The notes beneath the pieces were generated by a model, which saw nothing but the letters and a program-made list of their open reading frames with translations, was not told the DNA's origin and did not search any database. A DNA stretch of 64,000 nt from Nitrosomonas sp. Its GTDB lineage: Bacteria; Pseudomonadota; Gammaproteobacteria; Burkholderiales; Nitrosomonadaceae. Where the stretch lies: contig JAMXAG010000002.1 of NCBI GenBank assembly GCA_024281675.1, positions 124,001 through 188,000 of the forward strand, given 5' to 3'. The position numbers were made by a program, and so were the translations under genes. Shown here one piece after another: positions 25,514 to 61,852 of the stretch (positions are counted from its first letter, which is position 1; the number at the start of each line of letters is the position of its first letter).

Positions 25514-25532
25514 ATGCGACAAAATGTCGCAT
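25514..25532. promoter_or_regulatory. Palindromic operator 1
   Basis: ATGCGACAAAATGTCGCAT, arms of 8 bp around a 3-bp centre. It is one of six matches to TGCGACAANTTGTCGCA in the window, all intergenic. It lies 144 bp upstream of the DUF1775-like gene A and downstream of the gene at 25674. The 8-1-8 to 7-1-7 geometry resembles sites of dimeric Fur-family repressors, but the regulator is unknown. Confidence 0.75.
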
Positions 25533-25605
25533 CCGTTAGCAATGGCTTGAAATCTATATTGTGCTGCAGGAATGTACGCAAACCCGATGGGATGTAATAG
25601 TTGAT

Positions 25606-25650
25606 TGTAGTAGATTGATCTTTGAGTGACTTATAGATCAATCTACTACA
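25606..25650. repeat. 45-bp inverted-repeat element resembling IS1595 ends
   Basis: Perfect 15-bp arms, TGTAGTAGATTGATC at 25606-25620 and GATCAATCTACTACA at 25636-25650, around a 15-nt centre. The outer 11 bp (TGTAGTAGATT) equal part of the terminal repeat of the IS1595-family element at 27764-28474. It may be a MITE-like remnant of that element. As RNA it would form a hairpin after the gene at 25674 and could end that operon, although it has no T-run. Confidence 0.6.
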
Positions 25651-25673
25651 CGAAGTGACTGCTAATACTAGAA

Positions 25674-26141
25674 TTATTGCTGTTGCCGACTGGTAGTACT
25701 GGTTCCAGTATGTACATTGGTAGCGGTCTTGCAATGTAGCTCAACATCGTAGCTATCCGTACCCGCAGCCGTGTGAGCTACATACAAATTGTAAGTTCCC
25801 GCGCCTTGCGTCAGTTTAACAAGCGGGCTGTAGCCGGCATCATTATCTGCGCTATCCAAACTAAATCGTGCACATGCATTAGTATTACAATTTGTCGTGC
25901 CTTTTTGAATGGTAATGTTCACTTTAGACGAATTAGCCGTCATATCTTTAACGCGAGCTTCAAGATAGGAAGGCGCACCATTGCCGTCATCCGTACACGA
26001 GACGGTATAAAAATCAACGGCTGCTGCGAGCCCAGTGGTAAAACTGCCTGCTTGATTATGCGCCAAGGCAAAAACCGAATGGGTTAAAATTACACTACCT
26101 GCTACTAAAGAGATTATCGTTTTTACTGAAGTAAATTTCAT
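25674..26141 (-). CDS. Small secreted protein, mature N-terminal His (paralogue 1)
   Basis: A 155-residue secreted protein of no named family that I recognise. The signal peptide ends VFALA, giving a mature N-terminus HNQAGSF. The mature domain has a DFYTVSC segment, a central basic/hydrophobic stretch, GAGTYNLYVAHTAA and a late Cys (LHCKTATNVHTGTSTT). The protein at 60903-61337 has the same order: HQ, VDYFLITC, GGYHVYVSQS, FHCEDIDNMHSDTS. The two are paralogues. It is the third gene of a leftward run with 32 bp to the HEAT-repeat gene. AGGGGACAGAT precedes ATG. Confidence 0.65.
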   Translation of the reverse strand: MKFTSVKTIISLVAGSVILTHSVFALAHNQAGSFTTGLAAAVDFYTVSCTDDGNGAPSYLEARVKDMTANSSKVNITIQKGTTNCNTNACARFSLDSADNDAGYSPLVKLTQGAGTYNLYVAHTAAGTDSYDVELHCKTATNVHTGTSTTSRQQQ

Positions 26142-26173
26142 ATCTGTCCCCTAAAATCGTTTTTGTAATACCG

Positions 26174-26752
26174 CTATTTCACAGTTTCTGCTGTCGGAAA
26201 AAGACCCTCGAGCTTAACTGCAGCAAGTTCACGAACAGCTTGTTCATCATCCTTTAACGCATTTTTCAACAGTGCTACACTGCGGTCATCGCCCATTAAG
26301 CCATCCAGCGCCATTAGGCGTACTGAAAGCTCACTGTCATCGAGTGCTTGTTCAAGCAATAACATACTGTCCGCACAATTTTGCTGCACCAATGCATAAA
26401 CGGCCTGTCCTCTAACACGGGGATCCGCATCTTGTAAGGCTGTTTGTATGATTTTTTGCCGAACAACAACATCGATAGGCACTGCTGTTGCTAACCGAGA
26501 CAATGCAGCAACACGCTCTTCAGCAATCCTGGATACCGCTTGTTGCATCAATTCGCCAGTAACAACTTGATCGACTGATAACTCGTTCTCACCTGAAAAA
26601 CATTGGACTTGTACTGATGCAAGACTGTCAAACGCTACATTCGAACGGGTTGAAGTACTGTCATTTTCTGCATAAACAAACTGCGTAGCCCCCATCGACA
26701 AAGCCAAGAATAACGACAGATGGAGATGTTTTCGTTGCAATTTCATCATCAT
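26174..26752 (-). CDS. Secreted HEAT-repeat protein
   Basis: A 192-residue protein with a signal peptide (to about residue 29, cleavage after VYA) and HEAT-type helical repeats from about residue 80: VRQKIIQTALQDADPRVRGQAVYAL, then two more D--LSVRLMALDGL and DEQAVRELAAVKL units. HEAT repeats bind protein partners, so a periplasmic scaffold or adaptor role is plausible. It lies between a DUF1775-like gene (98 bp upstream) and the small N-terminal-His gene (32 bp downstream), apparently one operon. AGAGGAATTTC before ATG 26752 supports the start. Confidence 0.7.
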   Translation of the reverse strand: MMMKLQRKHLHLSLFLALSMGATQFVYAENDSTSTRSNVAFDSLASVQVQCFSGENELSVDQVVTGELMQQAVSRIAEERVAALSRLATAVPIDVVVRQKIIQTALQDADPRVRGQAVYALVQQNCADSMLLLEQALDDSELSVRLMALDGLMGDDRSVALLKNALKDDEQAVRELAAVKLEGLFPTAETVK

Positions 26753-26850
26753 GAAATTCCTCTAAAAAAGAGAGAATAGATAAAGGAGCTCTTCGACTTT
26801 CTCTTATCCATTCTCTAATTTAAACACTAATAACTACAGCTACTTCTTTC

Positions 26851-27615
26851 TTAATGGCGTAATGATGGCCACCATTGTTTACCCTTGACAACAATCGGCA
26901 TATCGCGATCCATTTGCGCTTTGGATGGAATCAATTCCACAGCATCACCCGCTTCGGAACAATCTCCTGGTAATGGATTGGCAGCCAGATCTCGTGTAAT
27001 CGTTAATGTTGCTGGAGAATCATAGCCATGCAAACCTACACCGTCAAAAATCGACCCAACGGCAGGTGTCCACATATTCACAGTCGCATCAGAAAGACCT
27101 GCAACATTGGTAACCTTGCATATATCTGAAATTGCAACAACTACTTTTACGCTGGAAGCACACGAAGTCGGTTCAAACGTATGCGCACTGGCTCTGAACG
27201 GTAGGAAAACCGTATAATAAGCAGGCATTTTTCCTTCCCTGACATAGAAACCTACCGTGTTTCCCTGTTCATCATGTTTTTCATCTTCTTGTTTAAAAGT
27301 GCCAGTATCCAAGACTTTTTGATACAAGTTGCCATAATTAGTCACATAATCGGCAATTGTTTTATCAGTAACGACAGTACCATTCACTTTTAATGTAGAG
27401 TCCTGCCCATCCGGGAAAACCACCGAGCTCGCAATGATATGAGTTCCATCACCACATGCGTGACCGATGACAACATTATTCTCAACTCTTACCCCTTCTG
27501 TTATCACAGGCGTGTTTAATCGAGTATGCGCCAAGGCATTGTGTGAAAAACCAACAACCGCAGCTACAGCCAACGCTGCTTTTGTTACATCCTTAAATTG
27601 TTGAATAGATTTCAT
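26851..27615 (-). CDS. Secreted DUF1775/YcnI-like protein B, mature N-terminal His
   Basis: A 254-residue secreted protein, closest in the window to protein C at 56182. The signal peptide ends HNALA, leaving HTRLNTP as mature N-terminus. Family pattern: EGVRVENNVVIGHACGDGT, SSVVFPDG, a variable middle, TSCASSV, DICKVTN, MWTPAVGS, RDLAANPLPGDC and a terminal QWWP. In DUF1775/YcnI proteins the N-terminal His and nearby residues bind Cu(II); here this is inferred. It heads a three-gene operon. An IS1595-family element now lies between this gene and the operator at 28600. Confidence 0.72.
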   Translation of the reverse strand: MKSIQQFKDVTKAALAVAAVVGFSHNALAHTRLNTPVITEGVRVENNVVIGHACGDGTHIIASSVVFPDGQDSTLKVNGTVVTDKTIADYVTNYGNLYQKVLDTGTFKQEDEKHDEQGNTVGFYVREGKMPAYYTVFLPFRASAHTFEPTSCASSVKVVVAISDICKVTNVAGLSDATVNMWTPAVGSIFDGVGLHGYDSPATLTITRDLAANPLPGDCSEAGDAVELIPSKAQMDRDMPIVVKGKQWWPSLRH

Positions 27616-27763
27616 TTCGAGAATTTCTCCTTTTTCTTTTAATGGCTACTTTTATTTTTACAATTCATAAAAACCCACTTCCGTCACACGTATACGCAAG
27701 GTATAGGCTTATAAATTTCAGAGCATAAAAACATGATGAAAGAAGTCGATCTACAAAGAAATT

Positions 27764-28474
27764 GGGGCTGTAGTAGATTAGCTTAGATGTTAGGCTAATC
27801 AAATGAAGATAAGTCATTGTAGATTATTGAAGAAAATACAGTTAAGGTTACTAGAGTTTTTTGTACTGGAAGTTACAGCGAGATCAGCAGCAGATATATT
27901 GGGGATTCAGCCTAATAGTGCAGTGCTGTTTTATCGCAAAATACGGGAAGTTATTGCGTACCATCTGGAACAAGAATCTCATGAAATCTTTGATGGTGTA
28001 GTTGAATTGGGTGAAAGCTATTTTGGTGGTGTTCGTAAAGGTAAACCTGGTCGCGGTGCTGCAGGTAAAGTTGCTGTATTTGGCATATTGAAGCGAGGCG
28101 GCAAAGCTCACACCAAGGTTGTGGAGATACGAAGTCGGAAACGTTAATGCCTTTGATAACGAGAAAAATCGCGCCAGACAGCATAGTTTATACAGACTGT
28201 TATCGTAGTTACAATGCACTTGATGTGAGCCACTTCTATCATGAACGAATCAATCACTCTACGCTATTTGCGCAGGGTAAGAATCACATTAATGGTATTG
28301 AAAACTTTTGGAATCAGGCTAAACGAGTCTTAAGAAAATACAATGGAATCCTCAAAGAATCATTTCCATTGTTTCTCAAAGAATGTGAATTTAGATTCAA
28401 TTATGGAACACCTAAACAACAGTTGAAAATATTGAAAAATTGGACTCAAATTTAACCTAATCTACTACAGCCCC
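27764..28474 (+). mobile_element. IS1595-family (IS1016-like) insertion sequence
   Basis: A 711-bp element bounded by perfect 17-bp inverted repeats (GGGGCTGTAGTAGATTA at 27764-27780, its complement at 28458-28474). It is flanked on both sides by the 8-bp direct repeat AAGAAATT (27756-27763 and 28475-28482), the duplication length expected for IS1595. Boundaries are therefore certain. It sits between the operator at 28600 and the DUF1775-like operon that starts at 27615. Confidence 0.92.
27803..28455 (+). pseudogene. IS1016-type transposase, frameshifted
   Basis: An ISXO2-like/IS1016 transposase broken into two frames, 27803-28147 and 28147-28455. The first part carries GVVELGESYFGGVRKGKPGRGAAGKV and the second VYTDCYRSYN and HINGIENFWNQAKRVLRK. 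Homologues read through; the frame is lost near 28125-28140. The usual VDESYFGG, whose Asp is catalytic, reads LGESYFGG here (GGT for GAT), so the protein would be inactive even if the frameshift were bypassed. Despite this, the ends and target duplication are perfect. Confidence 0.85.
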
Positions 28475-28980
28475 AAGAAATTTGTTTTTTAATGTTCCGC
28501 GTCTGCGCTTTATAGCCAAAAATAATTTTTCAAGCGCACATTGGCACGATAGAAACAAACTTCGAATGGGATGGTATTTCCTGTATGGATAAAAGACAAT
28601 GCGACAAATTGTCGCACTTAACACCCTAAGCTTTGTGGGGATACCCTTGCAAAAATTCGCTTGCAAAGACTTAATAGATTCTCTTAATTGATTATTTCTG
28701 AAGTAGGGTTTTACAAAACACCACTACAGAGACTGCGAAAATGAATACTTTTAAATCTCGCTATCGGTCTAAAAGATATATCTCCCCCTACGATAAAATT
28801 AGCAATAGGCTAATAAACCGCTCACTTCATAGGCGTGTTGGTTTGATACTGGGAGTTTACAGAGGATTTTGCGTAACCGTGTTCTCGGCAGCAATTTAGT
28901 GCAGAAAATGTGCACCCGGTCGGGTTAGCAGGCTAAGTTAACAAACCCGTAGCCCGACTCGGATTGGAAATATGCTTCGT
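28475..28980. other. Intergenic region with an operator, right of the IS1595 element
   Basis: About 500 bp between the IS and the P460 gene. The only clear element is the palindrome at 28600-28616. A 53-codon rightward frame at 28741 lacks similarity or a good ribosome binding site. Before the IS inserted, this sequence would have been the promoter region of the DUF1775-like operon now at 27615. Confidence 0.45.
28600..28616. promoter_or_regulatory. Palindromic operator 2
   Basis: TGCGACAAATTGTCGCA, a perfect 8-1-8 palindrome and the best match to the consensus of the six sites. Subtracting the 711-bp IS and one 8-bp duplication, it would lie about 265 bp upstream of the DUF1775-like gene B. 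With the IS in place it is 985 bp away. Confidence 0.75.
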
Positions 28981-29502
28981 CTATTTCTTAACGAATTCGA
29001 CGAGTTTTTGGTAAGTAAACAGATAGTCTTGCGCTTGTAACGGTGTATGACATTGAACGCAGTTCAGATCGTTGCTTTTCGCGGTGCCATCCGGATTATA
29101 GACTGCAAACCCCCAGTTTCCAGTGCGATCTTCTTTGCTAAAAGATGCCTCCCAGTTATCTTTATTTTCCATCACAGCGACTGCCGCTAAGGAATCAATT
29201 TCAAAAAGTCCATCCTTACCTGCTACCGGCTTACCGTCACCACCTTTTTTCGTATCGTAGATTTCCATCACGATCACGGAACCCGATCCGCTCTTACTAT
29301 CTTTAGTATAACTATTAACCGCTGCCTCGTTTGCATAGAGCTTGGCCACTTGTGTTTGATTGGCGCGATTCATTGTGGCGTATTGTTTAAAATCTTTTTC
29401 GTAGCCTTGTGGAAACTTTACATGATCGGGATTTCCACCCGCTTGTGTATGCAAAGGTATTGCTATCAGGCCCAATACTAATAGTTTAATAAAACTTCTC
29501 AT
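28981..29502 (-). CDS. Cytochrome P460-family protein
   Basis: A secreted 173-residue mono-haem c-type cytochrome. The signal peptide ends HTQAG, and a single CxxCH (LNCVQCHTP) lies near residue 151, close to the C-terminus as in P460 proteins. Family elements include FPQGYEKDFKQYATMNR at the start, VMEIYDTKK, WGFAVYNPDG and a final DYLFTYQKLVEFV. In Nitrosomonas, cytochrome P460 oxidises hydroxylamine to N2O through a Lys-haem cross-link; related cytochromes c'-beta bind NO instead. Which activity applies depends on the cross-linking Lys and a distal Glu, which I cannot assign reliably. AAGGAAGAAAAC precedes ATG. Confidence 0.8.
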   Translation of the reverse strand: MRSFIKLLVLGLIAIPLHTQAGGNPDHVKFPQGYEKDFKQYATMNRANQTQVAKLYANEAAVNSYTKDSKSGSGSVIVMEIYDTKKGGDGKPVAGKDGLFEIDSLAAVAVMENKDNWEASFSKEDRTGNWGFAVYNPDGTAKSNDLNCVQCHTPLQAQDYLFTYQKLVEFVKK

Positions 29503-29615
29503 GTTTTCTTCCTTTTAGGTAATTTGGATCAAATAATCGTTGAATGAGTATGATACCGTATTCAGCCGATTGTATTAATCGAATGAGCTTCTGTCATTTA
29601 CAAACACTGGGTCAA

Positions 29616-29981
29616 TTATTGGCCGAGATCCCAGATTAGTCGAATCGACAAATAGATTACCAGTAATGCAACCACTAGGTGGATTGCAAAATTCACCGGA
29701 TTTTGCTTGATCATATCGATAAAAGTTTTGTTTGCTCCTGTTTGTTTCAATAACAATAACTCGTTTTTGATTCGATTGGAACGTTCACGTTGATAGGCAT
29801 CTAATAAAGTACGTGCTTGCTCGAATTGATCTTCCTCTTTCACCCAAATAGCCGGGATTGAGACCCCCCAATTTCCTGGCGGCGTTTCATAAAAATCAAT
29901 AGCATGCTGCGCTAATAACTCGCGGACTTCTTCAATTTCATCGTCAGGAGCGCCATTTAATCGAAACAATATCTTTGACAT
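29616..29981 (-). CDS. DUF6164-like protein with one C-terminal membrane helix
   Basis: A 121-residue protein. The N-terminal 60 residues form a DUF2007-like alpha/beta domain (ILFRLNGAPDDEIEEVRELLAQHAIDFYETPPGNWG), followed by a basic linker and one transmembrane helix at about residues 97-118 (NFAIHLVVALLVIYLSIRLI). Similar small proteins occur widely in Proteobacteria without known function. The start ATG at 29981 fits the family N-terminus MSKILFRL. Confidence 0.72.
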   Translation of the reverse strand: MSKILFRLNGAPDDEIEEVRELLAQHAIDFYETPPGNWGVSIPAIWVKEEDQFEQARTLLDAYQRERSNRIKNELLLLKQTGANKTFIDMIKQNPVNFAIHLVVALLVIYLSIRLIWDLGQ

Positions 29982-30113
29982 AGGGCGTCTTTTCTGGTGT
30001 TATTTTTTGTAGAGTGTCATATTTACTAATCCAACGATATTGTTACATGGTATGCATAATCGTGCTGCGAAAAAAGTAACTGTCTTTAATTATTAACAAC
30101 TAACTGAAAACCG

Positions 30114-30953: not shown

Positions 30954-31010
30954 GTATTGCCTATGCTCGGATAGCCCCAAGGGATCTATGCCAAAAATAT
31001 CTTTAGTGTT

Positions 31011-31544: not shown

Positions 31545-31562
31545 GCTGGATATCGTCAAGAT

Positions 31563-31751: not shown

Positions 31752-31836
31752 TGCTTTGTCTCCTTTTTAAGACCCATCTAAACCAATAACTTTAGCATAA
31801 TCAGGGGGCTTTTTCAGAAAATTCACATCACTGAGA

Positions 31837-49058: not shown

Positions 49059-49073
49059 TTGAACCCGTAGAGA

Positions 49074-50195
49074 TTAAAGTCCGGCCTGTACAGCGAAGGT
49101 ATCAAACTCGCCCAAATTATTAATATTGGCACCAAATTCACCACCGATCGCAAAAACATGATTGTCTTTTATACCCACGCAAGTACCATTTTGATAACAC
49201 CGCGCATAATATCCCAGTGCTATGAACGATGTTGCCGCATGCGGCAACAAAGCAGGATAATTGGATTCAGCCCAATTAAACAACTTATCGGCCAATGCAG
49301 TATCAGTATTCGATTGTAGAACTCGCCCGGCTACTGCCTGCTGAAAATCTGTCAATGGCAAACCATTATTAAACATTATCCATAAACTATCGGAAGGCAC
49401 AGGATAATTATCGGTAATTAATTGCAGCTCGACCATATAAGCACCTATGGGTGCATTAGGGGTACCTAGATTAGATTCTATAATCCAATCAAGATGCGTA
49501 TGCAAGGAACCATCAGATCTGACTTCGCCGACAATGAGGGATGAAGCACTGCTTACCCCATGTCGATTGAATATCGTAAATCCTTCAATCGTTTTGGGAA
49601 TACAGAAAATCTGCCCACAATCTTGATTGGGTTGCAAATCCAGGCCACCAGCCAATCGAATTTGTATGCTCTCAGGTGCCAATGTCCATTGGCGGCTTTC
49701 TGTACTCCAATAACTTAAATGACCACTTGCAAGATATCGCACCCGGTCACCGGCCGTCATATCACCTGCAACACTTTCGAATCCTGGACTATCAATCGCT
49801 GTGCGGTCAGGAAAGATACTGAATCCTGATACATAAATCGGTGTGCCGGTCAGCTGATCAATCGGCATTTGCCCAGCAGGCAAACCAAGCGTTTCTGGTT
49901 TTACCAAGCTACACCCTTTTTCAGGACGGCAAAAGCTCGCTTGTACTCGCTGCTCTATAGTCCTGACTTCAATATGTTGATGCAATTCACCTGCGAATAC
50001 AATCAGTGGATTCAATAAATAGAATCCAATCAAGCTACTAATAGCTATATTAGGCAACTTAAAAAAAAGCTTAGAAATAAAATTGGATAGCGTAAACATA
50101 TTAAGAATTAAGTAAAAGTTGGTTGAATTTGTAAGTTCATATGAAGTGAAACCATCAAATAAATTTTCTGAGATTTTCAATTTACTCCTGTGCAT
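49074..50195 (-). CDS. Secreted all-beta protein, partner of the TonB receptor (paralogue 2)
   Basis: A 373-residue secreted protein. A long N-terminus precedes a hydrophobic signal ending IVFAG, so the mature protein starts GELHQHIEV. It is a paralogue of the gene at 52450: both have a GF...WS-E--QW region, an H-rich strand (SLHTHLD here), GAYMV and SD---IMF, then the same C-terminal domain (LFNWAESNYPALLPH, GYYARCYQNGTCVGIKD, FAIGGEFG). Last gene of the operon, 42 bp after the receptor. Start is uncertain: ATG 50195, or ATG 50099 at the signal peptide. It may bind metal or cap the receptor; that is inference. Confidence 0.65.
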   Translation of the reverse strand: MHRSKLKISENLFDGFTSYELTNSTNFYLILNMFTLSNFISKLFFKLPNIAISSLIGFYLLNPLIVFAGELHQHIEVRTIEQRVQASFCRPEKGCSLVKPETLGLPAGQMPIDQLTGTPIYVSGFSIFPDRTAIDSPGFESVAGDMTAGDRVRYLASGHLSYWSTESRQWTLAPESIQIRLAGGLDLQPNQDCGQIFCIPKTIEGFTIFNRHGVSSASSLIVGEVRSDGSLHTHLDWIIESNLGTPNAPIGAYMVELQLITDNYPVPSDSLWIMFNNGLPLTDFQQAVAGRVLQSNTDTALADKLFNWAESNYPALLPHAATSFIALGYYARCYQNGTCVGIKDNHVFAIGGEFGANINNLGEFDTFAVQAGL

Positions 50196-50237: not shown

Positions 50238-52466
50238 CTAGAATGTTGCACTCATTCCTACTTGAGCGCTAAATCCAGCTTCAGGTGCAAAATTCCGTAA
50301 AAAAGACGTTGAGTTTCTTATGGTCGTGTTAGTCATATTTGAAAGTTTAGCGAAGAAAAGGATTTTTCTGTGATCGGACATCTTCCAATCGTAAGTTAAA
50401 TCCAGATCTAATCGATGATAATTCGGCGTTTCAGTTTCCAGATTCCCTGGTCTATTTTGCTCCAATGCATGGGTATAGCGTAAACCTCCCCGCCACTGCA
50501 TCCATTGAAATCCTACTTCCCCACCGAATCGTAGTGGTGGAAGCCTAGGAACATCGCCAAGAGCGCCATTCTGAAACCAGCCACGCACATAATCAGAAAA
50601 CAGGGTTAAACGAGGACTAAAGGGTGAACTCAAGCGGGGATGAGCGGTAATCTCAGCTTCATAACCCCAGAAATTTGCATGATTAGCTTGATAACCAAAA
50701 ACAGGTAAGCAATTCCTCAAATTCGCACAAGTTTGTTGAAAACGCGGTGGATCTGGTGCGAAATTAAAAAAGAAACCCTGGTTCTCCAAATAAATAAAAT
50801 CTTGTATCGATTTGTAATAGCCATTGGCAAGGAAAGAGGCATGTTTACCTGCAAAACGCAATCCTAGCTCATAGTGATTCGTTTGCTCTGCATTAAGATT
50901 CAGGCGACCGAGCTCAAAGCTACGAGTAGCAAAATGAGGACCTGAAGCAAAGAGTTCTTGCACATCCGGTGCTCGTTGAGCATGTTGCCAATTTAAATAT
51001 AGCGAAGTTTGTGGAAGAATTTCATAATTTAGGCTCGCAGCTAATGAGTAAGTAAGATAATTTAATGTATTTGGCAAAGGTAATGGTGCCGAAATTCCTG
51101 CCATTCTAACCTCATTGCTCTTGGGGTTCGTTGTTTGGTGCTCAATACGGGCACCTACTTCAAGATTAAGTCGATCCGTAATAAAAAGAGTCTCCGTTAG
51201 AAAAAATCCTAACGAATCGGTATTCGTACTAGGTGTAAACGTTTCGATTCCTGTGGCTGAAAAATTACGATTCTGCCATTGCATACCAAAAACACCATCC
51301 AGCCAGCTACCTCGTTGATGGTTCATCTCCAAACGAGATTCCCATACGGAATTCTTAAACTGAGTCAGTGAAGAACTCCTATCAGTAATACCTTTATCAT
51401 AATCCCTATGATCGTAATCAATATAGCTCAGTTTTGCTTTTATTTTAGGCAATGATGGCCAGTATGTTTTCAACAAGCCATCTAAATCATATCGACGCTG
51501 GGACATATCAATCCTAATGGCTTCTTGTGAAGTTCTTGTACCGTCGGTATGACCAGGAACACCCGGTGGAATACCATAATTTCTCGTCATTTCATGATAG
51601 CTTCCACCCAAATGCCCATGTTTACCGATCATTGATAGCCCAGCAGATCCTCCCTGACTGTTGGCATTACTATTTTGAATCACTTTCGAGCTATTCGTCT
51701 CAGGGTCAACCTGGAATTGTTGCCGGATCGCAGCTTCATCCAAAGCAGCTCCAGGAATACGGGTATTATTCGAGGAACGTTGAAAATAATCGATATGAAT
51801 CGCAAAATTACCTCTGCCAATATCCAAACCGATCATGCTGGATTTATCTGAAGAATTATGGTCATAACGAAAATCCATTCGACCAGCAGCGCCATTAAGA
51901 GGAATCTTTTCAGGTATACGTTGATGTTTAATATCAACCATACCGCCAATCGCATTACCACCATAACGGAGGGTTGCAGGCCCCCTTAGCACGGTAATAC
52001 TATCTGCCAACATTGTTTCAAACGCAACCGCCAGATCAGGACTTAACGCAGAAAGATCATGTGCGCCAATCCCATTTTGCATGATTCTGACGCGAGGACC
52101 ACTCATACCGCGGATGACCGGTTGACCAACACCAGGCCCATAAGATAGATTACTAACACCCATTTCACGCTCTAGCGTTTTACCAAGGGTTTCGCCGGTG
52201 TGAACACGGAGTTCCCGACTCTCTAGCTTCTGTATCGGTTCGGCACTGATTTCCGTAGCTTCAATCGTAATTGTTTTAAGCTTGACAGGCTCTTGCTGCG
52301 AATTAGGGGAAGTTTGATTCTGGGTATTCGTATTGTTTTCTGCTATCGATTTTTTTTGTCCGCCTTGATCCTTTGATAACGCAGAATCACTCAAAAAAAA
52401 CAAAGTGATCAAAAGAATGCATGGGAATAATAAGCTCGACAAAACTTCATTAAAGCCCCGCTGCAT
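50238..52466 (-). CDS. ZnuD-like TonB-dependent outer-membrane receptor
   Basis: A 742-residue TonB-dependent receptor: signal peptide (ending SALSK), plug at about 65-200 and 22-strand barrel ending in SATF. The plug reads HTGETLGKTLEREMGVSNL, then GVGQPVIRGMSGPRVRIMQNG and LRGPATLRYGG, and the C-terminus carries NSTSFLRNFAPEAG. These segments match ZnuD-type receptors, which import Zn2+ (some relatives may take other metals). Loop cysteines (CANLRNC) may form a disulfide. It overlaps the upstream gene by 17 bp, so translation is coupled. TonB/ExbBD are not in the window. Confidence 0.83.
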   Translation of the reverse strand: MQRGFNEVLSSLLFPCILLITLFFLSDSALSKDQGGQKKSIAENNTNTQNQTSPNSQQEPVKLKTITIEATEISAEPIQKLESRELRVHTGETLGKTLEREMGVSNLSYGPGVGQPVIRGMSGPRVRIMQNGIGAHDLSALSPDLAVAFETMLADSITVLRGPATLRYGGNAIGGMVDIKHQRIPEKIPLNGAAGRMDFRYDHNSSDKSSMIGLDIGRGNFAIHIDYFQRSSNNTRIPGAALDEAAIRQQFQVDPETNSSKVIQNSNANSQGGSAGLSMIGKHGHLGGSYHEMTRNYGIPPGVPGHTDGTRTSQEAIRIDMSQRRYDLDGLLKTYWPSLPKIKAKLSYIDYDHRDYDKGITDRSSSLTQFKNSVWESRLEMNHQRGSWLDGVFGMQWQNRNFSATGIETFTPSTNTDSLGFFLTETLFITDRLNLEVGARIEHQTTNPKSNEVRMAGISAPLPLPNTLNYLTYSLAASLNYEILPQTSLYLNWQHAQRAPDVQELFASGPHFATRSFELGRLNLNAEQTNHYELGLRFAGKHASFLANGYYKSIQDFIYLENQGFFFNFAPDPPRFQQTCANLRNCLPVFGYQANHANFWGYEAEITAHPRLSSPFSPRLTLFSDYVRGWFQNGALGDVPRLPPLRFGGEVGFQWMQWRGGLRYTHALEQNRPGNLETETPNYHRLDLDLTYDWKMSDHRKILFFAKLSNMTNTTIRNSTSFLRNFAPEAGFSAQVGMSATF

Positions 52467-53406
52467 TGTAAAAAACTCCTATTGAACCTTGGCTGGCTAG
52501 ATCTCCCAGAACTCCACCCACAGTGTAAATATTACCGTCCTTGCTACCGACGCAAACAGAGTTATCGTAGCATCGAGCATAGTATCCAGAAATAAATCGG
52601 CTTTCTGCCGGATGAGGAAATAACTGGCTATATTGTGATTCTGCCCAATCAAAAAGTGTATCCATGCGGTTATAATCATTTAATTCAACAGTTGGCACCA
52701 CCTTCATAGCCTGAGACAATGCCAAGCGATCAAAGCTCTTTTGGGCATTAATGTGAAAAATTAATGCAAATGGATCGGAAGGTTTATAAAGAATATGCTC
52801 ACCCGAATCATCTACCCCTAAAACATTAATAAAAACCATATAAGCTCCATCTTCAGGTACAGATCCATCTGGTTTTTGTATTCGGAAAATAACATGCGCT
52901 TCGAAGCTACTACTGCTCGTCAATTTCTCGATAAATCCTTGCGATCCTTTACCTTCCTTATCGCTCACCATTTTTTCATCAGATAATCGACTAATTACTA
53001 TTCGTTCTGAAAAACCATCTCGTAACCACTGTGATTGCTCACTTGACCATCTCAATAATGTGCTCTCGATTTGATAGCCTAAAATACCTCCTTGATCAAA
53101 ATCGATCCCAGTAAATCCCGAATCTCCCATGCGATAAGGTGTGAGCGTATCAGTAAAAGGAATGACAAATGCGGTATAGTCACCCAACGGTTTTCCCTGC
53201 CGCCGGATATCAATTTCAATTTTGCCATCGCGCCACGCAAACCCCATATTCGGCTCACCCTCATGAGCCATGGCCACTACACTGAAAAAAAGCAAAAATA
53301 ATCCGACGAAAATACATTTAATCAATTGAATGCTCCAGAAAATTTCTAAAGAAGATCTGCTGATATGAGTCACTGAATGAATCTCCATCAATTGAAAAAT
53401 TTTCAA
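52450..53406 (-). CDS. Secreted all-beta protein, mature N-terminal His (paralogue 1)
   Basis: A 318-residue secreted protein, first gene of the receptor operon. The signal peptide ends VVAMA, giving a mature N-terminus HEGEPNMG. Body: beta-rich domain with a WSSEQSQW strand and AHVIF, then a C-terminal domain (LFDWAESQYSQLFPHP, GYYARCYDNSVCVGSKDG, YTVGGVLG) also present in its paralogue at 49074. The family is unknown to me. The operator palindrome at 53564 lies about 160 bp upstream. The start is a TTG at 53406 or ATG at 53388; neither has a clear ribosome binding site. Confidence 0.65.
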   Translation of the reverse strand: MKIFQLMEIHSVTHISRSSLEIFWSIQLIKCIFVGLFLLFFSVVAMAHEGEPNMGFAWRDGKIEIDIRRQGKPLGDYTAFVIPFTDTLTPYRMGDSGFTGIDFDQGGILGYQIESTLLRWSSEQSQWLRDGFSERIVISRLSDEKMVSDKEGKGSQGFIEKLTSSSSFEAHVIFRIQKPDGSVPEDGAYMVFINVLGVDDSGEHILYKPSDPFALIFHINAQKSFDRLALSQAMKVVPTVELNDYNRMDTLFDWAESQYSQLFPHPAESRFISGYYARCYDNSVCVGSKDGNIYTVGGVLGDLASQGSIGVFYNAAGL

Positions 53407-53800
53407 TTTTTCTTTTCTTAAGCAGTTTACAATTTATGTAACTGAGAACTCATTTGATGGAGTGTCTGTAGTATCTCTTGAAAGAAATACGCTATGAACT
53501 CGTTTGATAAATTTCTACAAAAATAAATTAGCGCGATCCTATGTGATCAATGGATAAATATCAATGCGACAAAATGTCGCATGGCTTCTGTCCGGTTTTA
53601 TCACTAAAATTGGTGCTCTTTCTTTTTTCTCTAAACTATTCAATGAAAGCGGTTGTAGCCTATACGCGACTTGGTTGGCACTTTCGGTTGTTTTGGTAAG
53701 CATGGGAGAGTGCTTTACGCCGCCGCTGCGAAATACTCAAGATGTTGTGTTGGTACGAAGTTGCCGGAACAATATAGTCTGTACGAATCCCAATAATCCG
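53407..53800. other. Intergenic/promoter region of the receptor operon
   Basis: About 390 bp between two leftward genes. It holds the operator at 53564-53582. A rightward 90-codon frame opens inside the palindrome itself but has no ribosome binding site and is likely chance. The remainder is AT-rich without other structure. Confidence 0.45.
53564..53582. promoter_or_regulatory. Palindromic operator 3
   Basis: ATGCGACAAAATGTCGCAT, identical over 19 bp to operator 1, 28 kb away. It is 158 bp upstream of the first gene of the ZnuD-like receptor operon, the best functional clue that the regulon concerns metal. Confidence 0.8.
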
Positions 53801-56140: not shown

Positions 56141-56181
56141 TGCATTATTTCCTTAAATTCTTAGTTATCTACTGTGATCAA

Positions 56182-56949
56182 TCAGGGTTGTGGCCATACT
56201 TGTACGCCATTGAATTGGATCGGCATATCGCGATCCACTTGTGCGGCGGAAGGTCTCACCGATACGTTCTGGCCTGCAGCACAAGATTCCGGCAAGGGAT
56301 TGGCTTCCAAATCACGGTTGACTGTAAAAAATACAGGAAAATCAAAGGCGTGCCCCCCAGGAGTTCCGTCATACTTTGAACCAACCGCTGGAGTCCAAAA
56401 ACTTACCGCATTGTCACTATTGATGTCATCAATACCGGTTATTTTGCAGATATCGGCCGCAGCGACCGCAAACCGAATTGTTTTGGCACACGATTCCGGC
56501 TTAATTGTTATGGCACTAGAAACGAATGGAATACGACCAAACAAGTGAGGTGCTATCGTTCGACCGCCACCGGTCCAGAATCCGAGCACATTTCCAAGAG
56601 CATCGCGTTTGGTATCTTGTTCACTGAATACTGAACGATCCTGGTATAACTGAATGACATTTCCCCAGTTTGTTACGAAATCGCTTAATGGGCCACTGTA
56701 AGGATTACCGTTGGTTGTAATGGTTGAATCAACACCATCTGGGAAAACAATGCTTGAGCCAATCACAGCATTATCGCCGCAGCCATGCGTAATCACGAGA
56801 TAGTTTTCCGATTTCTTGCCTTCAGTAATTTGTGCAGGTTCGATTACGGTATGAGCAACTGCACTCTGATAGGCAAAACCTGTCAGCACAATGAAAATGA
56901 ATGCCAGAAAGCTTTGATTGATTATTCGAGATAACAATACGTTTCGCAT
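56182..56949 (-). CDS. Secreted DUF1775/YcnI-like protein C, mature N-terminal His
   Basis: A 255-residue secreted protein. The signal peptide ends QSAVA, leaving HTVIEPAQI as mature N-terminus. The family pattern is complete: EGKKSENYLVITHGCGDN, SSIVFPDGVDST, ESCAKTI, DICKITG, FWTPAVGSKYDG, RDLEANPLPESC, VDRDMPI and VWP at the end. It is closest to protein B at 26851. AAGGAGACGAATT before ATG 56949 is a strong site. The operator at 57110 lies 161 bp upstream and is shared with the divergent gene D. Confidence 0.72.
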   Translation of the reverse strand: MRNVLLSRIINQSFLAFIFIVLTGFAYQSAVAHTVIEPAQITEGKKSENYLVITHGCGDNAVIGSSIVFPDGVDSTITTNGNPYSGPLSDFVTNWGNVIQLYQDRSVFSEQDTKRDALGNVLGFWTGGGRTIAPHLFGRIPFVSSAITIKPESCAKTIRFAVAAADICKITGIDDINSDNAVSFWTPAVGSKYDGTPGGHAFDFPVFFTVNRDLEANPLPESCAAGQNVSVRPSAAQVDRDMPIQFNGVQVWPQP

Positions 56950-57298
56950 AATTCGTCTCCTTGATGAGTTATTTTTTTAATATTCGGAGTAGTGAGAGAG
57001 AACTGCGCACTGCAGAAAATCGAGTGATAAACATGAAACGACTGCTCATCCAAAAAACACTACTCGGTTAATAGCGAGGCATTATCAGCGATCGGTGTAT
57101 TGTTAACAATGTGACAAATTGTCGCATTGATTTAAACATTTTCCTCAATCAGCATATCGCTGGAATCTAGGTTTAAATAATGAATTTTCTGAAACCGATT
57201 CTTAGAAAGTGCTTTTCTACCAATAACTGATTTTTTACTTAAAACAAATAAATTACGAGAACGCACTGATTACATAATTTTTCAAACAAGAGGTGTCT
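56950..57298. promoter_or_regulatory. Divergent promoter region of genes C and D
   Basis: About 350 bp between two divergent DUF1775-like genes. The palindrome at 57110-57126 lies almost centrally, 161 bp from one start and 173 bp from the other. No other element is recognised. Confidence 0.55.
57110..57126. promoter_or_regulatory. Palindromic operator 4
   Basis: TGTGACAAATTGTCGCA, one mismatch from the perfect 8-1-8 palindrome. Its central place between two divergent secreted-protein genes suggests control of both. Confidence 0.75.
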
Positions 57299-58196
57299 AT
57301 GAACAAAACATTAACGCTGCAAATCGCGGCTGGCATTGCATCAGCGCTGCTGGTGACAAACGTGCAATCGCATATGTTCACGAACTTTCCAGTCTACGAT
57401 CGCGGTGGGCTTTATAAAAAAAAGTAAGGAAACCGAATGGCCCTATTACCGAGATGGCGCTTTCGGTCCCATCCGGTTCAATGTACAGCACGCTTGCAAC
57501 CATGATGGCAATGATCCGATAACCACTAAGCAAGTGGCAGTCGTTATTCCTACGGGTGCAACCGTTCAAAAGATCAATACAACTCTGCCTGCCCCATGGG
57601 AATTTCCAACTTTCGAACCGCCCTACCAGGAAATCGGCTCCGCATCTCCCGATGCAAATGGCTACGACTGGGCCATTCAATTTGTGAAACCGCATGCCCA
57701 GACTTCGTTGAACAAGGTTTATCCAATCATGGGTAAAACGTCAACAGGAGAAAATATACCCCGAGCACTCGTTTGGGTTGGCGATCATCCGGACAACAAT
57801 GATGCAGATCTTTTAATCACAAACTTCTTTCCGGAAATTCCCGCAGAGTCCTGCATCAAAGAAGCGCAATACTTTTTCCCATCAGCACAATTTTGTACCA
57901 CCCAAGGCCAGCCCAATTCTGTAAGCGGCTGGTTACTCGGCACTACAAGCCAATGGACGAAAGATCGATTGGGTGAATCTGCAGTACAGTGGTCACTCAC
58001 CGTCAGTGTAATGCGTGATCTCACGAAAAAGCCGCTACCCAGCAACTGTGGAAACGGTGACATTATCGGCATATATCCCTCCCGAGAGGACATTGATCAA
58101 TACTTGAGACCGGTCTCTATGGATAAGAAAGGACACAAAGTTCAACAGAAAAGTATCAACTGGTGGCTCAAGCAACGTCAACACGGTGATCATTAG
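57299..58196 (+). CDS. Secreted DUF1775-like protein D, interrupted at an A8 tract
   Basis: A diverged member of the family. The first frame from ATG 57299 (AGAGGTGTCT upstream) encodes a signal peptide ending NVQS and a mature N-terminus HMFTNFPVYDRGGLYKKK, then stops. The second frame (open from a GTG at 57405) continues KKSKETEWPYYRDG and carries QHACNHDG, VAVVIPTG, ESCIKEAQ, VMRDLTKKPLPSNC and a His-rich tail (QRQHGDH). The two frames join if one A is removed from the eight at 57416-57423. As sequenced the gene is broken; slippage, phase variation or a sequencing error could each explain this. Confidence 0.68.
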
Positions 58197-58230
58197 AATT
58201 TTGTTCTACAGAGCAGCCTAAGGATCTCCT

Positions 58231-58262
58231 TCATCGTTACCCTATAGATAGGGTAACGATGA
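58231..58262. terminator. Perfect hairpin between gene D and the DUF1775-like relic
   Basis: Arms TCATCGTTACCCTAT (58231-58245) and ATAGGGTAACGATGA (58248-58262) are fully complementary around a 2-nt centre. It lies between convergent reading frames, 35 bp after gene D, and would act as a bidirectional stop. No T-run follows. Confidence 0.5.
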
Positions 58263-58269
58263 AATAGTC

Positions 58270-58890
58270 TGAATCATATCAATCTAAAGAATCAAAATAA
58301 TCGCGATCTGTTCCCTTTCTTTTTACCGGCCAATAATCAGGAATGGGTAGATTTTTATCGACATCTTCCGCCGACGGAGTAACTCTAACGGTTATACCGT
58401 TACCGCATGCTTTCGTTAATTTACCATTGGTCACGGTATGGATTTGTTTTCAAATTCCTCATGACGGTTAAAGTCGATGGTTCGCCTATTCCATGATTAA
58501 CACCATTAGCACGCGCATCGGCAGCAATTTTCAATCCATTATCAGAAATGAATAGCGAAATCTTTCCAGGTTGCAATGCGGGTGCGTTCGGATTCACTTA
58601 ATGGCGCTAACGGAACTCAGTAGGGCGGCTGCAAATCCAAGTTGAGCGGCCAGACTTCAACCTGAGTAGGAGCATCGTCTGGAAGCGTTACTCGTTGAAT
58701 CACCTGCACCATTTATTAAGAAAAAGGATATCAAGTATAAGAAGGATTGGGCTGTTCAATCTTAACCGAGAAATCCTAGTTGGATAAAGCAAAGTTTCTG
58801 GCTCAAAGAGAAAAACAGCATCCTCGCTACCTACTGCCTTTATCCCCACGGGTGATGTAAATCTCAAACCCGAATTGCTACAAAGAAAGT
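58270..58890 (-). pseudogene. Decayed DUF1775-like gene E
   Basis: No long frame is open, but minus-strand pieces match the family. Near 58650 it reads VIQRVTLPDDAPTQVEVWPL, ended by TGA. From about 58590 it reads ISDNGLKIAADARANGVNHG and then STLTVMRNLKTNPY. After a frameshift at about 58445 it continues LTKACGNGITVRVTPSAEDV and LPIPDYWP. These correspond to the VVFPDG, RDL--NPLP-C and C-terminal WP blocks of proteins A-D. The 5' part near 58700-58890 is not interpretable. Operator 5 lies just upstream of it. Confidence 0.65.
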
Positions 58891-58906
58891 GCGACAATTG
58901 GTCGCA
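58890..58906. promoter_or_regulatory. Palindromic operator 5
   Basis: TGCGACAATTGGTCGCA, arms conserved with a shifted centre. It lies 118 bp upstream of the thioredoxin-like gene (rightward) and at the 5' side of the decayed DUF1775-like gene (leftward), again a divergent arrangement. Confidence 0.68.
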
Positions 58907-59023
58907 TGTTCAAAAAATAGAAATTTGTAGATAATCTGTCGAAACTGAACGAATTGCCTCTCTTTGTGCCACATTGATATTTAATAACCTCAACCTCACT
59001 CATCGCCATTAACGAGCACCATC

Positions 59024-59518
59024 ATGAAGCGACCTAAAATTATTGTTACTTATTTTCTATTCTTGTTATACGGTATTGGCTGGCCTGCTCACGCGGAACA
59101 AGCGGATTTGAAGCATTTTACTTCCGGGAGTTATCAGCAATTGCTGAAAGAATATGCCGACAAGCCCTTTGTATTGATGATTTGGTCTATTAACTGCACT
59201 TCGTGCTTGAAAAAAATGCCTTTAATGAATGAACTGCGCAAAAGCATGCCGGATATTAATATGATCATGTTGGCCACTGATGATGCTTCGGCAGCAGATC
59301 AGGTTAAATCCATACTGACTGGAAACGAACTCAATCAAGTCGATAACTGGATTTTTGCCGATGCTAACTCTCAAAAGCTTCGATATGAAATTGATCCCAA
59401 GTGGTATGGCGAAGTACCACGCACCTATTTTTTGGATAAAGACCACCAGCGTCTTGGGATCAGCGGCTCAGTACCACGAGAAACGCTTGAAACCATACTC
59501 AAGAAAATTCTCAATTAA
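59024..59518 (+). CDS. TlpA-like periplasmic thioredoxin
   Basis: A 164-residue secreted thioredoxin-fold protein. Signal peptide ends PAHAE; the active site is WSINCTSCLKKMP with CTSC near residues 58-61; the cis-proline is in GEVPRTYFLD near 138. TlpA-type proteins reduce disulfides in the periplasm and often serve cytochrome or copper-site assembly. Several proteins of this cluster have multiple Cys, so they could be its clients; that is inference. An operator lies 118 bp upstream. The BNR-repeat gene follows 163 bp later. Confidence 0.8.
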   Translation: MKRPKIIVTYFLFLLYGIGWPAHAEQADLKHFTSGSYQQLLKEYADKPFVLMIWSINCTSCLKKMPLMNELRKSMPDINMIMLATDDASAADQVKSILTGNELNQVDNWIFADANSQKLRYEIDPKWYGEVPRTYFLDKDHQRLGISGSVPRETLETILKKILN

Positions 59519-59681
59519 CTCTATTTATAAGGAAGTCAGACTTCTCCAATACGTGCACCTTGAGACAATAAACCAATATGTCCTCGCCACCACATGTAAC
59601 GGATGCACTAACCTTATCACGCTGGATTTGTAGTCAGTTGAATGATTCAACTGAAACCAGTTTTTCTAAATATACGCCATC

Positions 59682-60881
59682 ATGAACGGTCTTTCTTTGA
59701 TTTTCATCGCGGTATTGCTATTAGTTTCATCAGGAAATTTGATAGCCGAATCCGAGAAAATACTTCCTGAACAAAAAATCTATACCGCAGCAGCATTCGG
59801 TCCAGATGGACGATTATGGCGAATAATTCCGTCTCAGAAATATGTCTCGGTCGATTATTCAACCGATTACGGAAAATCATTTGGTCAAGCGATTCGCCTC
59901 AATCCAACCGATATGCCCATCCATTTATGGGACGAAAATCCTCCCGCTATTTCCGTGGATCGAGAAGGAAGAGTCTATGTGCTCTACTTCGCCGATGATC
60001 AACAATCCAGCACCAGTTTTTTCAGCCATTCCGACAATGGCACTCTGTTCAGTGCGCCTATCAAGATCAGTTCCGAGGCCAATACCTGGTATCACTATCA
60101 AACGGAAATGCTGGTCGATGCAAAGAATCGCATTCATTTTATTTGGCACGATACGCGCGACCGGGCTGAATATAAAAAACAAGGCGGTGGGGATTTATCG
60201 ATTTATCATGCTTCCGCAAAAACCAAAACAATAGAAGCTCCCTTTTCTGATCAACGTATTGCAAAGAACATCTGTTCTTGCTGCCGCACAGCGATGGCTG
60301 AAGATGTCGATGGTAATTTGGTCATATTGGCCCGTTTTGTCTACCCGGGAAATATTCGCGATCATGGCCTGTTTAAATTGTCATCTGATGGAAAAGCCGG
60401 TGAACCATGGCGAGTAACTTTCGATGACTGGGAAATTGAAGGATGCCCGACACACGGCCCCGCACTGTCGATCAGCACTGATGGTCGCTACCACATGACT
60501 TGGTTTACCCAAGGAGAGAAACGAAGCGGGCTTTTTTATGCATGGTCGGACGATCAAGGAAAAACATTTTCCAATCCAATACAAGTGGGCGATCAAGATA
60601 AATTACCCGGCCGCGCTGATGTACTGGCTTTGGGTAAACGGGTAGCGTTAGCATGGAAAGTATTTGATGGTAATAAAACCCGTGTGGAAGCTATGTATTC
60701 TTCTGATGGAGGATTGCATTGGTCGAAAGCCGAATCAATCGCTGAAACAGCCGCTCAGTCTGCTCATCCCGCGCTGATCACAGACGGTAAGCAGATTTTT
60801 CTTTCCTGGAATAGCATGGATACAGGCTACCACCTAATTCCAATTGAACCACTCAACAGCACGGTCGATACTAAACCCTAA
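59682..60881 (+). CDS. Secreted BNR-repeat (sialidase-like fold) protein with Cys-rich motif
   Basis: A 399-residue secreted protein, signal peptide ending NLIAE. It is a six-bladed propeller with Asp-box-like repeats: STDYGKSFGQ, SHSDNGTLFS, SDDQGKTFSN and SSDGGLHWSK. Such folds occur in sialidases, but the catalytic Arg triad and Tyr are not obvious, so hydrolase activity is unsupported. Between blades it carries KNICSCCRTAM near residue 205 and EGCPTHGP near 250, a CxCC plus CxxH set that could bind metal or haem-free copper. It follows the thioredoxin gene in the same direction. Confidence 0.72.
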   Translation: MNGLSLIFIAVLLLVSSGNLIAESEKILPEQKIYTAAAFGPDGRLWRIIPSQKYVSVDYSTDYGKSFGQAIRLNPTDMPIHLWDENPPAISVDREGRVYVLYFADDQQSSTSFFSHSDNGTLFSAPIKISSEANTWYHYQTEMLVDAKNRIHFIWHDTRDRAEYKKQGGGDLSIYHASAKTKTIEAPFSDQRIAKNICSCCRTAMAEDVDGNLVILARFVYPGNIRDHGLFKLSSDGKAGEPWRVTFDDWEIEGCPTHGPALSISTDGRYHMTWFTQGEKRSGLFYAWSDDQGKTFSNPIQVGDQDKLPGRADVLALGKRVALAWKVFDGNKTRVEAMYSSDGGLHWSKAESIAETAAQSAHPALITDGKQIFLSWNSMDTGYHLIPIEPLNSTVDTKP

Positions 60882-60902
60882 TTGGTGGGGGAGGAGAAAG
60901 GG

Positions 60903-61337
60903 TTATGGCTGATCAATTTTGGTAACCACTGAGGTATCAGAATGCATATTATCAATGTCTTCACAATGAAAAATTAATTGGTAATTGGCCGCTTTCTCAT
61001 CGCTCATTGATTGGCTGACATAGACATGATAACCCCCCACACCTCCTCCCACTCGTAGCACCGGGCTTGTTTTGCCATCTGGATTCATGGCGCTGAATGC
61101 TACCTTATCCTTGACAACCACTACATTAAATTGTCTGCCATCCACTACCTTGAGATCATCAATCTGCACAAACAAGTGATGACTACCCGCCTCTCCACAT
61201 GTTATTAGGAAATAATCTACGGCATGCGGCGCGGTAAGGCTATTAATGAGTTGATGCGACGAAGCAATGCTTGCGTAGCAAATCGCAATCAGAATACTTG
61301 AGAAAATGGCCACTTTTTTGAGTGACTGTTTCTTCAT
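60903..61337 (-). CDS. Small secreted protein, mature N-terminal His (paralogue 2)
   Basis: A 144-residue secreted protein, paralogue of the one at 25674-26141. The signal peptide ends ASIASS, leaving HQLINSL as mature N-terminus. Shared order: VDYFLITC, HLFVQIDDLKV, GGVGGYHVYVSQS, FHCEDIDNMHSDTS. The two Cys probably pair. I start at ATG 61337 because AGGAG lies 7 bp upstream; the frame is open to 61469 but without a signal. A broken MbtH-like gene and operator 6 are upstream on the same strand. Confidence 0.68.
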   Translation of the reverse strand: MKKQSLKKVAIFSSILIAICYASIASSHQLINSLTAPHAVDYFLITCGEAGSHHLFVQIDDLKVVDGRQFNVVVVKDKVAFSAMNPDGKTSPVLRVGGGVGGYHVYVSQSMSDEKAANYQLIFHCEDIDNMHSDTSVVTKIDQP

Positions 61338-61507
61338 GGTAAAACTCCTAATATTGTAAATGTTTCGATTTGAGCTGCAAGACATTGCTATCTTGTCCCA
61401 AGTAAAAGCGTTAAGGAAAGCAAAATGCGTATTCGTGACTGTGAGCAATATCGCACGTTTGACAACCACTCGGAAGAACCAAGTCTGTCATATGGGTAAA
61501 ACATTTT

Positions 61508-61743
61508 TTACTTAGCTTGGCGTGCGTTATCTTGTTCCATGTGTTTTCGTAAACTCAATGGACGCATATCCGTCCATACTTCCTTGATGTACGCCAGACA
61601 CTCGTCCTTGCCACCACTTTTACCTACCACACGCGCCACCCACCTGGCATTTCTTTATAGCTCGGCCAAATAGAGTATTGTTCTTCATGATTGACCACAA
61701 TATGATAAATTATTGCGTCATCTTCATTTTCGTTCTATTCCAT
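61508..61743 (-). pseudogene. MbtH-like protein gene, broken
   Basis: The minus strand encodes an MbtH-family protein in two frames. The first reads [32 protein letters not shown], and the second [20 protein letters not shown] then [12 protein letters not shown] to a TAA. The diagnostic NxExQxSxWP and WTDxRPxSL segments are intact. A 2-bp insertion (GTGTGG for GTGG) near 61635 joins the frames, and a TAG follows two codons after the ATG at 61741-61743. MbtH proteins activate NRPS adenylation domains; no NRPS gene is in the window. Confidence 0.78.
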
Positions 61744-61835
61744 GCTACTTTCTCTCTCATAAAATAATCAATAAAAACTTTCCCAGAACCTCAAGAAGTC
61801 TTATTTAGACTAAAACCAGCAAGAAGTGGTGTCAA

Positions 61836-61852
61836 TGTGGCAAATTGTCGCA
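61836..61852. promoter_or_regulatory. Palindromic operator 6
   Basis: TGTGGCAAATTGTCGCA; the right half is perfect and the left half has two changes, so it is the weakest of the six. It lies 93 bp upstream of the MbtH relic (leftward) and 178 bp upstream of the TIGR03032 gene (rightward). Confidence 0.6.

Follow-up and report, generated by a model that had tools for sequence, protein, structure and literature searches.

RegB/RegA two-component systems, which also go by the names PrrB/PrrA, ActS/ActR, RoxS/RoxR and RegS/RegR, are global redox switches with an unclear DNA recognition code. In the parts of the published work covered here, the kinase RegB is described with a GGXXNPF quinone motif and a redox-active cysteine (PMC8191878), chromatin immunoprecipitation sequencing (ChIP-seq) in Rhodobacter sphaeroides did not find a strong consensus (PMC4263372), a RegA-type motif could not be predicted in Acidithiobacillus ferrooxidans (PMC5506826), and a ChIP table for Rhodobacter capsulatus RegA lists the site GTGACAATTTGTCCC at cydAB (PMC5359404). 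Here we describe a palindrome, TGCGACAAWTTGTCRCA, that recurs in a 64,000-nucleotide stretch of a Nitrosomonas sp. genome (the window; assembly GCA_024281675.1, contig JAMXAG010000002.1, positions 124,001 to 188,000) and at promoters elsewhere in the same genome. The most likely reading, to which we give a probability of about 0.8, is that this box is the binding site of a RegA (PrrA/ActR/RoxR family) regulator.

The Nitrosomonas system shares with the described RegB/RegA systems the best family match of kinase and regulator, a conserved helix-turn-helix (HTH), the GGxxNPF quinone motif with a cysteine at the expected place, a site of the GCGAC-N5-GTCGC type, and the presence of such a site at the promoter of regBA itself. 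It differs in that the published motifs are degenerate, whereas the Nitrosomonas box hardly varies and always takes the same place in the promoter, and in its targets, which are mostly secreted proteins and candidate small RNAs (sRNAs). All 17 non-coding sites of the host genome described below lie within one mismatch of the published RegA motif and within two of the RegR and PrrA motifs, levels that 0.5%, 0.2% and 0.15%, respectively, of 4000 random 17-mers from the window reach. Among the literature matches listed for the motif letters, PMC4064962 was the sole relevant one.

Two further RegA systems touch on metals. In Methylomonas sp. DH-1, likewise a copper-monooxygenase bacterium, RegA is tied to metal uptake and bound the feo promoter by ChIP; that work concerns iron and methanol and uses neither the word motif nor the word consensus, and the parts of it covered here mention no sRNAs and none of the secreted proteins with a histidine directly after the signal-like segment ('His-first' proteins) found in Nitrosomonas (PMC13274454). 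R. capsulatus RegA itself binds copper, with Cu(II) and oxygen driving disulfide dimers, according to the portion covered of PMC9147068; there copper acts on RegA, whereas in Nitrosomonas RegA would control copper-handling genes.

An earlier sequence-only reading of the window had proposed an undescribed regulon. The regulator and the type of box are in fact known, the motif having been described in degenerate form, but four features appear to be new, namely how sharply the box is defined, its constant place in the promoter, the genes it precedes and the sRNAs; the best-ranked matches in the open-licence literature searched reported neither RegA targets nor such sRNAs in Nitrosomonas. A nearly invariant box at one promoter position makes both the recognition code and activation testable on about 17 natural promoters. 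If the reading is true, a set of genes for secreted proteins of ammonia oxidisers, possibly involved in handling copper, would gain a regulator, and three candidate families of sRNAs would be added.

A directional box at a fixed promoter position

Scanning the window with the pattern TGCGACAANTTGTCGCA, allowing up to three mismatches, gave seven matches, every one at two mismatches or fewer; the expectation from 100 dinucleotide shuffles was 0.46, and no shuffle gave as many as seven. The sequence-only reading had listed six sites. All six are real, although two coordinates were one base off (the boxes start at 25515 and 53565), and the list lacks a seventh, which lies at 2565-2581 ahead of a dihaem CCP/MauG-like gene. 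It had also described a perfect 17-bp palindrome; the number of sites is indeed far above chance, but only 28600 matches the pattern exactly, four sites having one mismatch and two sites two. The long identity that it noted between the first and third of its sites holds and extends over 21 bp, the two boxes (25515 and 53565) having perfect 7-bp arms flanking AAA. None of the seven sites lies inside a credible gene, as had been claimed for the six (two overlap short mechanical open reading frames, ORFs). Four sites lie 144, 158, 160 and 117 bp from a gene start. For 61836, the secreted gene in its direction begins about 0.5 kb away if MKKQ is its start, and the gene on the other side is at 177 bp. 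The site at 28600 is separated from its operon by an insertion sequence (IS; 27764..28474, minus strand), as the sequence-only reading had recognised: the relative L148 lacks the insertion, and its two flanking sequences join directly, sharing 8 bases.

All window sites are directional, each with a -10-like hexamer at the same distance, features that the sequence-only reading had not noted. On the plus strand, the promoter at 2565..2610 reads TGCGGCAATTTGTCACA-TTCTCA-17-AATAAT and precedes the MauG/MbnH-like gene, and that at 58890..58935 (box 58890-58906) has the -10 hexamer GATAAT. On the minus strand lie 25486..25531 (box 25515-25531, -10 AATAAT), 28571..28616 (box 28600-28616, the exact palindrome, -10 TACCAT), 53536..53581 (box 53565-53581, -10 TAGGAT), 57081..57126 (box 57110-57126, -10 GATAAT) and 61807..61852 (box 61836-61852, -10 TAGTCT); at 25515, 53565 and 57110 the opposite strand also fits the promoter pattern.

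Across the host genome (2.81 Mb, 29 contigs), 20 sites were found at up to two mismatches, compared with none for the reversed pattern used as control. At exactly three mismatches there were 19 further sites, which we treat mostly as chance because the reversed control then reaches nine. Of the 20, 17 are not in any credible coding sequence (two of them overlapping short uncredited mechanical ORFs), so the abundance of coding or scattered matches that the sequence-only reading had named as a sign against a regulon was not seen. The three in coding sequence (C28:110315, C1:10500 and C26:1011) were excluded from the geometry count; the first (also L023:8316), a near-perfect box, falls within the beginning of an SDR-like gene, with a divergent gene 140 bp away, and was treated as probably due to chance.

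The sites are not symmetric when oriented toward the gene that they precede: they read TGCGACAATTTGTCRCA, and TT comes next in 15 of the 17. In the hexamer 23 nt past the box, the second base is A and the sixth T in all 17 non-coding sites. At this gap 15 of 17 sites match TATAAT in at least four of six positions; among the remaining gaps between 12 and 39, none has more than four such sites. The spacing was also examined in 68 named loci, which were retrieved as homologues of a single target family and so do not form a random sample: of their 149 distinct sites, 129 have the hexamer at gap 23 (in either orientation), and no other gap from 14 to 39 exceeds 37. The resulting layout is palindrome, -35-like hexamer, 17 nt and -10. 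Expressed as a whole-promoter pattern of 12 fixed bases, it has 20 matches in the genome and none in the control: 16 of the 17 promoters (58890 deviates), three reverse readings of window sites, and C15:46406. Counted from the -10, the palindrome falls at about -52 to -36 and directly abuts a poor -35 element, a class-II-like activator position that suggests activation as its effect.

The box is conserved upstream of orthologues, a point on which the sequence-only reading had made its regulon depend. Three or four of the window targets belong to one secreted family, which we call YcnI-like after its predicted fold, and which was found in the 68 loci, mostly from Nitrosomonas or beta-proteobacterial metagenome-assembled genomes (MAGs); a small number come from MAGs of methanotrophs, and one bears the label Phycisphaerae. 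In the 63 loci with at least 200 bp upstream (five shorter loci were omitted), 59 carry a box at up to two mismatches ahead of the family gene.

RegB/RegA as the candidate regulator

One of the genomic sites (C19:38329) lies 73 bp ahead of two genes whose best NCBIfam matches identify them as a regB-regA operon. The kinase matches the ActS/PrrB/RegB family with 276 bits (NF033792, 3.7e-82) and the regulator the ActR/PrrA/RegA family with 197 bits (NF033791, 1.7e-58), both top-ranked apart from NF045988, also a RegB family, for the kinase. The host RegB reads GGSTNPF at the quinone motif, HELGTPL at the H-box and QIVHCKQTL around a cysteine at the expected place (the cysteine alignment was judged by eye); the host RegA consists of a Response_reg receiver and an HTH_8 domain, a Fis-type HTH reading NMHRRTLQRKL.

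The association of the box with regBA extends to relatives. Taking a best match above 110 bits as presence (the best of the remainder scored 89 bits), 91 of the 274 genomes searched in the class clearly have RegA, the host included, two of the 91 being partial. The regBA regions of 60 of the 90 other RegA-positive genomes were fetched, and in 59 of them a long ORF stands where the kinase is expected. Within the span from -300 to +120 relative to the kinase start, 37 of these 59 carry the core box at up to two mismatches (1.3 expected from Markov shuffles) and 29 at up to one. Within Nitrosomonas, where RegA is single-copy in all 61 genomes searched, the box stands at regBA in 26 of the 30 best-scoring of 61 regA loci, with 0.05 expected, and each of 36 congeners examined has 2-21 sites genome-wide, above its own control in every case (0-5). 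Over the class, RegA-positive genomes have a mean of 2.2 sites (n=90) versus 0.67 in negative ones (n=183; Mann-Whitney 3e-17, or 0.001 after subtraction of controls), which is weak support for RegA because the total in positive genomes, 201 sites, is hardly above the 192 of the reversed-pattern control.

That near-equality of totals is one of several observations that weigh against RegA as the reader of the box. Both proteins fall below the NCBIfam equivalog cut-offs (RegA 197 of 250 bits, RegB 276 of 350), the RegA cut-off being passed by none of the 274 genomes of the class. There is no match at up to two mismatches in 22 of the 59 regB promoters, nor in four of the 30 Nitrosomonas regBA loci. 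The fixed -10 spacing goes unseen at regB promoters outside Nitrosomonas (gap 23 in two of 39), and within the genus the regB promoter has a mostly TAATGT-type -10 (three of six matches) and no TTG -35. In 24 genomes of the order outside the genus there are 0-10 sites versus 0-9 in the control; since these genomes and the class totals are close to control, the box is abundant in Nitrosomonas and not everywhere. At the YcnI-like genes the box is missing from L172 and from the methanotroph loci L200, L208 and L210 (two Methyloprofundus MAGs and one Methylococcaceae MAG), and the fold match of that family to YcnI, taken up below, leaves much of the protein unmatched, with a TMq of 0.38 and a TMt of 0.68.

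Other explanations for the box have to be set against the same evidence. The sequence-only reading had likened its 8-1-8 shape to sites of Fur-family metalloregulators (Fur, Zur or PerR type), which would suit a palindrome ahead of metal-uptake-like secreted genes, and the genome does encode two Fur-family proteins (C13:48422 and C27:124193). A search for a site at a Fur-family gene's own promoter led to rejection, as neither gene's contig has a site at up to two mismatches; moreover, the box marks many regB promoters of the class and agrees with the RegA, RegR and PrrA motifs, and its GC-rich half site TGCGACA is not of the AT-rich Fur type, a dissimilarity that the sequence-only reading had itself rightly pointed out. 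We therefore regard a Fur-family reader as very improbable. Some other regulator with a similar site is improbable too, if less starkly so: an ArsR-family gene, divergent from the site C1:384575, starts 162 bp from it, and another Fis-type response regulator would be a further candidate, other response regulators being common in these genomes. Against this, ArsR was matched in two of 69 relative loci, neither with the downstream spermine-synthase-like gene (itself matched in 31 of 69, locus ends being cut), so that the ArsR neighbour was dropped, and it is regBA, the only candidate examined in this way, that shows a class-wide association with the box. The BlaI/CopY, CRP/FNR and extracytoplasmic function (ECF) sigma factor readings were considered and dropped given the link to regBA and the fixed -10.

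It is also conceivable, though we think it unlikely, that RegA binds the box and mainly represses, or acts differently from promoter to promoter. R. capsulatus RegA both activates and represses, as the part covered of PMC5359404 has it. A palindrome beside the -35 could block polymerase, but all 17 sites occupy the same position relative to a -10 and precede a degenerate -35, the arrangement that an activator would be expected to show; repressor sites usually vary in position. Scarcely credible is a non-regulatory origin as mobile repeats or terminator hairpins. The palindromes are short, have conserved tails and in three cases lie in gaps between convergent ORFs, yet the roughly 17 copies have unrelated flanks and a -10-like hexamer at constant distance, and the copies in convergent gaps precede sRNA-like units with stems of their own.

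If RegA is the reader, RegB would sense the quinone pool, with its redox-active cysteine also contributing, and phosphorylate RegA, a dimer of which would bind the box and recruit RNA polymerase from the class-II-like position on a sigma-70-type promoter. Some 17 transcripts would be switched on, regB-regA itself among them. Besides the three candidate sRNAs, which carry CCCUCC stretches, the set would comprise His-first secreted proteins, including the family with the YcnI-like fold, as well as a TonB receptor, a thioredoxin-like protein and a dihaem protein of MauG type.

Candidate small RNAs

Three boxes (C12:94109, C20:44323 and C12:231826) lie in the gaps between convergent ORFs. Each is followed by TTCNCA, 17 nt, CATAAT and then CCCTCC-type stretches. 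The three units, candidates A, B and C, each combine their own promoter, a stable stem and conservation, without an ORF of at least 80 amino acids (aa; smaller peptides are possible). In candidates A and B the end is formed by a GC-rich hairpin and a run of T; the stem of C is long, and in three of seven aligned sequences a run of U comes after it. Single-sequence folding gave z-scores of -3.6, -3.0 and -4.2 for A, B and C. These sRNAs may be made and act on ribosome-binding sites, as the CCCUCC stretches could pair with Shine-Dalgarno sequences.

Full-length matches to A were found in two of 60 other Nitrosomonas genomes. An earlier sRNA pattern, which gave control matches and many chance matches, was replaced by a tighter one, promoter plus TCCCTC, which cannot reach family A; it matched in 10 of 85 genomes and not in the control, B being found in four genomes and C in seven (host counted), with an ambiguous match in G376. 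The candidates are thus confined to part of the genus. None of the 20 sRNA loci reached an Rfam gathering score. Putative non-coding RNAs of Nitrosomonas europaea have been published earlier.

In other Nitrosomonas (L275, L277, L280, L281, L283 and L284), a box with a TTC-type -35 stands before a leader that is conserved, has arms of the form AACGTGGTT...CCACG and contains the stretch GGAG(G/A)(A/T)(T/G)... The gene after the leader may be RIO-kinase-like.

Secreted targets and a possible copper link

The YcnI-like family is represented in the window by secreted-looking proteins at 24597..25370 (minus strand, His after the signal-like segment), 26851..27615 (minus, first gene of its operon) and 56182..56949 (minus), and by a divergent, distant member at 57405..58196 (plus) with a seemingly interrupted frame. 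At 57297-58196 (plus) the signal-peptide-like start and the remainder are in different frames near 57400, which may indicate a pseudogene, a phase-variable gene or a sequencing error. In a 49-sequence alignment (45 of 51 passing relatives and the four own proteins), the invariant columns are two histidines, H52 and H30, of which H30 directly follows the signal-like segment, together with four cysteines; H30 would presumably become His-1 of the mature protein and is a putative copper ligand. The AlphaFold2 model of the protein at 26851..27615 has a mean pLDDT of 88.7, and its top fold match in the PDB is copper-bound YcnI (7mek, E 9.7e-05), YcnI accounting for five of the top six matches. Pfam gave no convincing match, and none to DUF1775, for the 49 members; we therefore speak of a predicted YcnI-like fold and not of a YcnI/DUF1775 member. 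The family shares with YcnI/DUF1775 copper proteins the predicted fold and an invariant His at the presumed mature N terminus, but its proteins are larger, have four invariant cysteines and show about 8% identity.

A second His-first family comprises a 155 aa predicted beta-sandwich protein at 25674..26141 (minus) and the small protein at 60903..61337 (minus) whose start was taken at MKKQ. The alignment of this family covered 45 of 73 sequences; its predicted fold is a beta sandwich, for which PDB matches gave nothing specific. Of the box-driven proteins with a signal-like start, 91 of 127 were His-first, versus 92 of 383 in the background; these counts, biased by the retrieval of the loci through one His-first family and based on a home-made signal rule, were not used as evidence.

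The remaining protein targets are varied. Downstream of the seventh site is a 476 aa secreted-looking dihaem CCP/MauG-like protein (2721..4151, plus; Pfam CCP_MauG 3.1e-06, with a weak match to TIGR04039, MbnH, at 51 of the 363-bit cut-off). A secreted-looking HEAT-repeat protein (26174..26752, minus) is the next gene after 26851..27615. A minus-strand row contains a 318 aa protein with AHEG after the signal-like segment (52450..53406), a TonB-dependent receptor that is ZnuD-like and also similar to the copper receptor OprC (50238..52466), and, as its third gene, a 373 aa protein (49074..50195), the first and third having no Pfam family. On the plus strand lie a secreted-looking thioredoxin/TlpA-like protein (59024..59518), with weak family matches and box-bearing homologues, and a BNR-repeat-like protein below the Pfam cut-off (59682..60881). 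The targets also include a weak CorA-like protein (L019), an amidohydrolase and a spermine-synthase-like membrane protein. In the loci examined (own included), box-driven gene clusters comprised 14 amidohydrolases, 13 spermine-synthase-like proteins, 12 of the 60903 type and seven TlpA-like proteins.

A recurring theme is that the secreted targets possibly handle copper. The CorA/CorB and MopE/SACCP proteins of methanotrophs pair a copper-repressible surface protein with a dihaem peroxidase-like partner (PMC3912023, in the part covered). In Nitrosomonas both the CorA-like L019 and the MauG-like 2721 protein carry boxes, but the two genes are at separate loci and the CorA match stayed weak (20.5 of 27 bits). 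The genome G324, which belongs to a different family of this order, has a box 1.3 kb ahead of regA. Its other boxes are found in a gene cluster that encodes TonB receptors, a redoxin, PepSY_TM and DUF3570 proteins, and a protein distantly related (25% identity) to the second His-first family, so the link may extend past one genus. PepSY_TM genes are described beside TonB copper transporters in part of PMC12914433. In two families of the order, genes for a His-first protein, a redoxin and DUF3570 stand together near RegA boxes (L017:13260-17402 and L348:2544-12332).

Ammonia oxidisers depend on copper enzymes for nitrification, the ammonia monooxygenase and the oxidases of Nitrosomonas both needing the metal. 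A tentative joint reading, more doubtful than not in our view, is that copper shortage is sensed through a reduced quinone pool. Failing copper oxidases would leave the pool reduced and RegB would fire; RegA would then turn on copper acquisition through the His-first YcnI-like proteins, the TonB receptor and a dihaem maturation enzyme, while anti-Shine-Dalgarno sRNAs would silence competing copper users.

Two further features adjoin window sites. A cytochrome P460-family protein (28981-29502, minus) lies next to the 28600 site, whose box is directed away from it. A stop-containing stretch at 61470-61730 (minus) lies about where L214 has a box-driven MbtH-like gene (Pfam MbtH 4.6e-20) and looks, by eye, like a remnant of it.

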